Positions 25,861 to 58,300 of a stretch of DNA of 64,000 nucleotides are shown in pieces; position 1 is the first letter of the stretch, and every line of letters starts with the position of its first letter. Under the pieces are notes generated by a model. It ran no database searches. It saw only the letters and a program-made list of their open reading frames with translations, and was not told the DNA's origin. The position numbers and the translations under genes are program-made. The DNA lies in NCBI RefSeq assembly GCF_000764305.2, contig NW_025943958.1:186001-250000 (forward strand), written 5' to 3'. Origin of the DNA: Hyalella azteca (lineage: Eukaryota; Arthropoda; Malacostraca; Amphipoda; Hyalellidae).

Positions 25861-25940
25861 GAAAATTTTTGTTTTCTTCATGCAGTGGTAACTGCCGAGC
25901 ACGTGTGGAATTTCTTAAAATCATTAACAAAACACAAATT

Positions 25941-25963
25941 GATTTCCCTCTCTTTTTTGACAG
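25941..25963 (+). promoter_or_regulatory. Candidate 3' splice site in the 5' UTR of the atonal-like gene
   Basis: A long pyrimidine tract (CCCTCTCTTTTTTGACAG) ends in a CAG acceptor 7 bp before the first ATG. A second, weaker acceptor-like tract ends at 25885. Donor-like sites upstream include AAG/GTAGTT (GT at 25478) and GAG/GTACGC near 25544. Together they suggest a 5' UTR intron with the coding exon beginning about 25964, which explains why the open frame continues upstream without an ATG. This is inferred from consensus alone. Confidence 0.5.
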
Positions 25964-25970
25964 AGGTGTA

Positions 25971-27617
25971 ATGATTGCTACAATGGATAAATATTTTTTC
26001 CCAGAAGATGACAATTTTCTGGGTCCAGCGAGTGGGTTGATTAGTCTCATGGATTCCACTGAGCCAGCCGAGCGGGGTTCAGTAGAAAAACCTACAAATG
26101 ATGGCTTCCTCGTCACTGAACCCGAAGCCTATGAGTTGACAGTTATCGGAGAGTCCTACCCTGTTTCGGAGTATCCTCAATACCCAACGCCTACAGAGCT
26201 AAACCACGAACATTCTTATCCTGATTCAGGCATCGATATTAGACCAGATAATTCAACTAAGCCGGAAAACGTAATTCAACTTGTTGAAAATGAGACAATG
26301 TGTGAAGAAAAACTTCAAGTTGAGAAGGCACGAGATGTTGCGACCCAGCCGCTCCGAAGTCAAGGGATGGATTCGTTTTTACCACCAGCGTTTACTTTCA
26401 CGTCAGGATCAACTCACCCGATTCCGTTAACATCTCTAAGCGATCCATTTGAAAGCGATTGTTTACCAATTCATCATAACGGTTCGCAACATGAGAAGCT
26501 GGATTATTCATTCATCTCTTCACAGTCCTCGGCTTACAATAACTCGGAAAAAGAACAAAGGACTGTTGAAATGCCCAAACACATACATAAAGATCATCAT
26601 ACTTCTTTCTTTGGAATTGTAGAGCTTAACAACAACATAACTATTAAAACAAGCAATCTTGGGGTTACTGAGTCCGAGAGGCATTCTTTATATGAACTTA
26701 CACCGCCTGCGGAAGAAACGTTAGACTTGGACAAGGTCATGAGCCTCCCATCTCAAACTAACCCTCCTCAGCCTAACCATATTCCAGTAGATGATGCTCA
26801 TAACATGCACAATCCATTCTCTGAACACATCATTCAACAGCATTGCCAACCACAGGCACAAATTCTAGAAAATTCCCAGCAAGATTTTGAACATCAAAAG
26901 TTAGAGCCACAACAACCAATACCTATCTACGAACAAGAACTACAACAAATCGGGCCCCATCGTCCTTCTCCTGTGCAACAACAGTTAAGCCAGCAAGATC
27001 AACTTGCGATGCATAGTCTCCGTTATAGCGGTTTCGTTAACGAAAACACAACGTCCGTAATGACAAACTCAGGCCTGATAAATTCTCCAGCGTTGGAAGA
27101 TGTTCCTGTCCATCATGTGATACCTCACCTCAACCGCCAACCCCCCCAGAAGCATATGCCCACATTCGACCAAACGTTTGAAGGCCAATATAGTATGGAG
27201 ATGCAGTCAGATTTCCCTTTAAAAGGAGTGCCTATTATCGAACACGACCTCAACGACCTTAACTTTTCTCATCCTTCCCTGCCAAGTGGACTTCTTCACC
27301 CACCCTCCAACGTCACCCCGCCAGCACCGCAACACTCAAAGAACCCTACGCACCGGCAGTGTCCAAAGCCCACTCGAAGGAGAAGACACCGAGCGCCGCC
27401 AAAAGAAGTCGTAAAAACACGTCGTGTACAAGCAAATGCACGAGAAAGACGCAGGATGCACGGTCTTAACGACGCATTTGAAAGACTCAGGGAAGTTGTG
27501 CCTTGTCTTGGCAGTGACCGGAAACTCTCCAAGTTCGAGACGTTACAGATGGCCCAAACTTACATCTCGGCCCTGCAGGAGCTGTTGAGAAGTACGGACG
27601 AACCTCCCAAGAGGTGA
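25971..27617 (+). CDS. ato: Atonal-family bHLH transcription factor
   Basis: This gene encodes a predicted nuclear DNA-binding protein of 548 residues in one uninterrupted exon; atonal-type genes are often intronless in their coding part. The C-terminal bHLH (about residues 484-540) has the basic motif [16 protein letters not shown], including the E-box-contacting Glu and the Arg run, and helix 2 reads [18 protein letters not shown]. The ETLQMAQ.YI signature is typical of Atonal/Atoh1 and unlike neurogenin or NeuroD. Family members dimerise with class I (E-protein) bHLH partners and specify sensory or neural cells. A basic patch (about 466-485, KPTRRRRHR) may be a nuclear signal. The long N-terminus is Pro/Ser/Thr-rich with a Gln/His/Pro-rich stretch (about 286-345), probably for transactivation. 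Only about 8 residues follow the bHLH, as in fly Atonal. The first ATG after a strong splice acceptor is 25971; ATG 25983 (ACAATGG) has better initiation context and would give 544 residues. The frame stays open upstream to 25869 but without an ATG. Family assignment is secure; exact orthology is not. Confidence 0.94.
27420..27590 (+). other. bHLH domain of the atonal-like gene
   Basis: This is the segment encoding the basic region, helix 1, loop and helix 2. The basic region starts [13 protein letters not shown]. Helix 1 is [15 protein letters not shown], the loop is [10 protein letters not shown] and helix 2 is [16 protein letters not shown]. Every signature position of the atonal group is intact and there is no stop or frameshift, so the domain looks functional. 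Confidence 0.93.
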
Positions 27618-57589: not shown

Positions 57590-58300
57590 CTATAATTTAT
57601 GATCGGGGTTCCCACACGGCCAATTGTTGGCCGGCTATGATCCTGCTATAATTTATCACCAAGTGCCCAGACTCGGCCGATTGTTGGCCGGCTATGATCC
57701 TGCTATAATTTATCACCAGGGTTCCAGACTCGGCCGATTGTTGACCGGCTATGATCCTGCTATAATTTATCACCAGGTGCCCAGAAACGGTCGATTGTTG
57801 GCCGGCTATGGTCCTGCTATAATTTATCACCAGGTGCCCAGACACGGCCGATTGTTGGCCGGCTATGATACTGCTATAATTTATCACCAGGTGCCCAGAC
57901 ACGGCCAATTGTTGGCCGGCTATGATCCTGCTATAATTTATCACCAGGTGCCCAGACACGGCCTGTCTCTTATACACATCTAGATGTGTATAAGAGACAG
58001 GCTATGATCCTGCTATAATTTATCACCAGGTGCCCAGACACGGCCGATTGTTGGCCGGCTACGATCCTGCTATAATTTATCACCAGGTGCCCAGACACGG
58101 CCGATTGTTGGCCGGCTACGATCCTGCTATAATTTATCACCAGGGTTCCAAACACGGCCGATTGGTGGCCGGCTATTATCCCGACACTGCCGATTGTTGG
58201 CCGTCAATAATCCTGCTATAATTTATCATTAGAGTTCCAGACTCGGCCGATTGTTGGCCGGCTATGGTCCTGCTATAATTTATCATTAGGATTCCAGCAG
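57590..58300. repeat. Tandem array, 57-bp unit, about 12 copies, with assembly junction
   Basis: CTATAATTTATCACCAGGTG then CCCAGACACGGCCGATTGTT then GGCCGGCTATGATCCTG recurs at 57-bp steps (57646, 57703, 57760, 57817, 57874, 57931, then 58013, 58070, 58127). The 82-bp step between 57931 and 58013 is a 38-bp synthetic insert replacing 13 bp of unit. Long open frames on both strands follow from the period being 19 codons. Confidence 0.95.
57963..58000. other. Synthetic Nextera mate-pair junction adapter (assembly artefact)
   Basis: CTGTCTCTTATACACATCT is followed immediately by AGATGTGTATAAGAGACAG. These are two exact 19-bp Tn5 mosaic ends head to head, the sequence created when tagmented fragments are circularised in Nextera mate-pair libraries. 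It replaces 13 bp of a 57-bp repeat unit. It is not part of the organism's genome. Confidence 0.97.

Follow-up and report, generated by a model that had tools for sequence, protein, structure and literature searches.

A mate-pair junction adapter sequence within a 57-bp minisatellite of the Hyalella azteca assembly

Sequence and identity of the 38-bp insert

The closest described relatives of the sequence reported here are laboratory constructs, of which the shortest is the synthetic Tn5 mosaic-end oligonucleotide, a 19-mer printed in the excerpted text of PMC4248319. For longer constructs, the Skewer paper (PMC4074385, as excerpted) states that each correctly formed molecule of a Nextera long mate-pair library has its paired fragments connected by a junction adapter, and PMC7357533 describes, in its excerpt, a biotinylated ring adapter of 38 bases for circularising mate-pair fragments in an ultrasound-sheared protocol. 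In the assembly of the amphipod Hyalella azteca we find these same letters at one place in the window (the whole 64-kb stretch of DNA that was analysed, positions 186,001-250,000 of a contig of 355,358 bp), where, just as a preliminary description of this DNA had claimed, two exact Tn5 mosaic ends stand head to head with 0 bp between them (Table 1). The resulting 38-mer is its own reverse complement, a perfect palindrome. From the Nextera mate-pair junction adapter, which we take to consist of exactly these 38 letters, no difference was found, the likeness extending to all 38 bases, the palindrome, a Tn5-like bias of cut sites and the many copies per assembly. Natural IS50/Tn5 elements likewise have 19-bp inverted ends, of related sequence. 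The ring adapter is identical in its 38 bases too, but sheared ends should be free of transposase cut-site bias, whereas adapter copies in the Hyalella genome show such a bias.

Table 1. Features at the adapter, in window coordinates.
Feature	Coordinates	Strand	Remarks
57-bp minisatellite interrupted by adapter	57614..~58297	+	
44-bp repeat segment left of adapter	57919..57962	+	Identical to 58001-58044
First Tn5 mosaic end, 19 bp, exact	57963..57981	+	CTGTCTCTTATACACATCT; same letters as the Tn5MErev oligo (PMC4248319, as excerpted)
Second Tn5 mosaic end, 19 bp, exact, inverted	57982..58000	-	AGATGTGTATAAGAGACAG; directly after the first, both together forming the 38-bp palindrome
44-bp repeat segment right of adapter	58001..58044	+	Identical to 57919-57962

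With up to two mismatches allowed, the 19-mer has no match in the 64 kb beyond these two mosaic ends. No such match arose in 100 shuffles of the window, and mosaic-end fragments 11 to 18 bases long are absent from the window outside the adapter. Other adapters (TruSeq, Nextera index sides, P5, P7, PacBio, ONT, loxP and SOLiD) have no whole match in the window, and Rfam and tRNA scans of it returned nothing. Ordinary Nextera read-through was ruled out, as the second mosaic end directly adjoins the first and no index-side sequence is present.

Spread of the adapter and cut-site bias at its flanks

Across the Hyalella assembly (519 Mb in 4,890 contigs) we counted 5,585 exact copies of the 38-mer, or about one per 93 kb, a density at which the odds of meeting one adapter in a 64-kb window are about even. 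Exact 19-mers number 6,573 in forward and 6,528 in reverse orientation, with about 0.004 expected by chance, and a reversed control pattern had 0 matches in the same assembly. A search of 10 kb on each side of the window revealed neither an adapter nor a core word of the 57-bp unit. Outside this animal, the 38-mer is present in at least 120 stretches of unrelated assemblies in a prokaryote collection, in 7 stretches of a viral collection and in 5 of 72,556 plasmid records; it is absent from all 20,395 E. coli records and all 50,697 phage records searched. The five public plasmid records carry the adapter at 14 places in total. Among the matches listed, the prokaryote assemblies with the adapter include several Enterococcus, Ideonella, Scytonema and Collinsella scaffolds, and records titled as chromosomes, such as CP051244.1, CP017948.1 and NZ_CP051236.1, likewise contain it. 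For two other talitrid genomes, the excerpted reports name Nextera mate-pair libraries, Platanus and SSPACE (PMC7062882, PMC7831040). A limited literature search found no published notice of adapter contamination in the present assembly, which we regard as a weak negative.

The flanks of the adapter copies also carry a common signature. A weight matrix derived from the prokaryote and viral comparison loci (287 distinct flanks) gave 84 distinct flanks from the Hyalella genome higher scores than the full set of window positions (p = 3e-21), their median being at the 88th percentile; the window used as background is A+T-rich, so that base composition may add to the p value. The pattern by position is alike in comparison and own-genome flanks, with G first, T second, A or T fifth and C ninth. 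At the window adapter itself the right flank lies at the 96th percentile and is second of the 57 possible cuts in the unit, and the left flank fits only moderately (70th percentile, rank 17 of 57). To judge from the flanking letters, the occurrence of the same bias beside adapters in both sets is what would be expected of tagmentation ends.

Because of its sequence together with its spread through the assembly, the 38-mer is almost certainly a laboratory artefact, that is a leftover sequencing adapter, and not animal DNA; the insert is contamination of a known kind, without a biology of its own. The earlier attribution to a Nextera mate-pair junction from untrimmed reads agrees well with the number of copies, the shared cut-site bias and the unrelated assemblies in which the 38-mer recurs.

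Origin of the insert and register of the array

We next consider how such a sequence could have entered the assembly. In the Nextera mate-pair kit, Tn5 transposase cuts the DNA and adds a mosaic end to each fragment end, and circularisation then links two mosaic ends head to head and gives exactly the 38-mer. Untrimmed reads from such a library would have been used in assembling the genome or in filling its gaps. A break of the short-read assembly within or next to the 57-bp minisatellite is most likely; adapter-bearing reads would have extended the broken edges, and two edges would have met across the adapter.

Bearing on this proposal are 40 stretches around the first-listed adapter copies (contigs C7 to C55, not a random sample), containing 46 exact 38-mers as well as four ends that are broken or single, and as controls 40 adapter-free stretches of the same contigs with three points in each (120 points). 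A tandem array adjoins 33 of the 89 adapter sides scored, whereas among control sides the figure is 33 of 238 (Fisher p = 1e-5, about 2.7-fold). Sides with N or too short were excluded, 3 of 92 at adapters and 2 of 240 at controls, which left 43 of 46 junctions and 119 of 120 points with both sides. For 10 of the 46 adapters, and for none of the 120 control points, a single N is no more than 60 bp away (p = 1e-6). Both p values are optimistic because control points within a stretch, and adapters sharing one, are non-independent. Some scaffolders and gap fillers leave marks of this kind. Several loci (e.g. L159, L163 and L175) have one array on one side of the adapter and a different array on the other. 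That adapters in the sampled stretches cluster beside tandem arrays and single Ns points to gap filling with untrimmed mate-pair reads, and we infer it to be likely that contigs broke at arrays and were bridged in this way. The window contains no N, so there is no gap mark at its own adapter.

A few of the sampled loci are irregular in other respects. One adapter copy is cut off by a single N (L167:443) and another gives way to a run of C before it is complete (L180:993). At L146:1013-1152 two complete adapters lie 64 bp apart, as would result if ligation had placed a short tagmented piece between two others, and L168 has two adapters 108 bp apart.

In the window, the 57-bp array continues on both sides of the adapter, as the preliminary description had noted, and keeps its period. 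The unit has no match elsewhere in the assembly, all six matches falling at this locus in a search that skips very common words, and the array as a dispersed repeat was thereby ruled out. The row that bears the adapter measures 82 bp, which is 57 - 13 + 38 and equally 38 + 44. A replacement of 13 bp of the unit, as described earlier, therefore fits the row length, but so does an adapter followed by a repeated 44 bp; modulo 57 the two are equivalent and the register cannot separate them. The flanks are more informative, since the 44 bp on its left and the 44 bp on its right are identical, as a duplication would predict, and for this reason we favour a 44-bp duplication. Among 45 in-register pairs from ten copies (chosen by sequence pattern, with other, more diverged copies excluded), the flanking 44-mers form the only identical pair. 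Comparison assemblies offer parallels: of 147 usable junctions (7 of 154, with a flank below 60 bp, were left out), 20 carry a direct duplication flush against the adapter on either side, and a second test of duplication gives 24 of 147 with controls at 3 of 1,993 and 3 of 2,000. The segment at 58001-58044 is probably a second copy of one 44-bp piece, and a duplication at the window adapter is the best single reading of the register, one to which we would give an even chance. The two ends would probably have overlapped by 44 bp of repeat, leaving the adapter plus a second 44-bp copy, so that our best estimate of the false excess at the locus is 82 bp.

A less probable alternative, which we hold only tentatively, is that the same artefact arose with a local loss, in which 13 bp of the unit, alone or together with whole units, went missing and nothing was duplicated. 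The identity of the 44-mers beside the window adapter speaks against it, while the remainder of the sampled genome is more favourable. An ungapped test detected a duplication at 3 of 46 own-genome junctions, all three in arrays, and no abutting one at 43 of 46, which rules out that adapters in this genome are generally accompanied by a duplication. A test of direction gave 7 recurrences on the side that a circle predicts versus 15 on non-predicted ones, mostly in arrays. Moreover, four own-genome junctions with about 5 kb on each side showed neither a direct recurrence of the flank nor a kilobase back-jump, inserts above 5 kb being beyond this range. On these grounds, loss at closure may be the commoner event in the Hyalella genome, and 13 bp may have been lost at the window as well. 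Some individual junctions are more complex. One of the four stretches of about 10 kb contains an inverted match at 96%. At L149:218-1842 two copies of a 794-bp segment, 97% identical, abut the adapter exactly, one on each side; they may reflect genuine tandem duplication, two haplotypes or a fault in closure. At L156:789-1190 the sequence to the right of the adapter recurs inverted (127 bp, 98%) on the left side, unlike the geometry of a circle.

More doubtful still is that a single kilobase fragment with both ends in the array was circularised and its junction read closed the array, in which case the true array would be at least as long as the library insert. Junctions in the comparison assemblies lend this some plausibility. 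At 35 of the 147, in addition to the 20 with a duplication, one of the flanks next to the adapter reappears at a distance of 0.1-5.3 kb, in the direction expected of a circle, so that the two ends of one circularised fragment fit 55 of 147 junctions (the 20 abutting duplications and 35 distant recurrences), and 92 of 147 have neither. In the control for direction, 64 recurrences were on the predicted side, 25 on the non-predicted side and 2 inverted (both sides of 143 junctions, each duplication being scored on either side; the other 11 of 154 had a flank below 100 bp and were left out), and the 25 non-predicted cases mean that part of the signal is plain repetition. At the window, the register of the array (44 modulo 57) permits a kilobase circle but does not demand it. 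Longer direct overlaps are inexact there, with 9 mismatches at 158 bp, the unit is confined to this locus in the assembly, and the four own-genome junctions with no back-jump within about 5 kb count against it also, longer inserts being possible. The preliminary description had proposed a circle with both ends in the array, and hence an array that may be kilobases long. The first is not needed, because an abutting 44-bp duplication explains the register equally and gap filling would suffice, and the second is not required, since the identical flanking 44-mers fit the register. Its caution that copy number here is untrustworthy was fair; the true array may be longer or shorter.

Finally, we ruled out a natural transposon end, and a real Tn5-type insertion in the animal genome is next to inconceivable: the letters are indeed those of a transposon end, but they match the engineered mosaic end, with the natural outside and inside ends agreeing at 16 of 19 and 15 of 19 positions, the two ends have 0 bp between them and thus no element body, the 9 bp to the left (AGACACGGC) and right (GCTATGATC) form no target duplication, and exact copies of the 38-mer are present in unrelated assemblies. 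Among the readings of the register we place the 44-bp duplication first, the local loss second and the kilobase circle third, an order that expresses our judgement.

Consequences for the assembly and its annotation

The window is rich in minisatellites, with 27 rows at a score of at least 150 in the first 50 kb and 18 rows at a score of at least 50 in the last 14 kb, some of them overlapping, and the adapter occurs in only one of its arrays, the one with the 57-bp unit. That array has a further irregular row of 89 bp (58127-58215), in which an extra piece of 32 bp repeats part of the unit without an adapter, and which is either real or a second closure fault. Elsewhere in the window, a long single open reading frame at 25,869-27,617 has a bHLH domain at its C-terminal end; the best of its named relatives comes from the amphipod Trinorchestia longiramus, at 38% identity over 78%.

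For gene annotation, an insert of 38 bp shifts reading frames and has one frame that is open throughout (VSYTHLDVYKRQ), and an adapter can for this reason give genes false ends. At the window adapter, one mechanically called open reading frame starts inside the insert and another stops inside it. Repeat lengths next to an adapter are unfit as data, and the adapter is a quality warning for the whole assembly. The 5,585 copies may mark places where gap filling through minisatellites failed, in which case minisatellite lengths would be systematically unreliable across the assembly, a possibility for and against which we see the balance as equal. If it is true, the 38-mer would be a ready map of false closures in the Hyalella azteca genome, and an assembly-wide adapter screen would locate such places.
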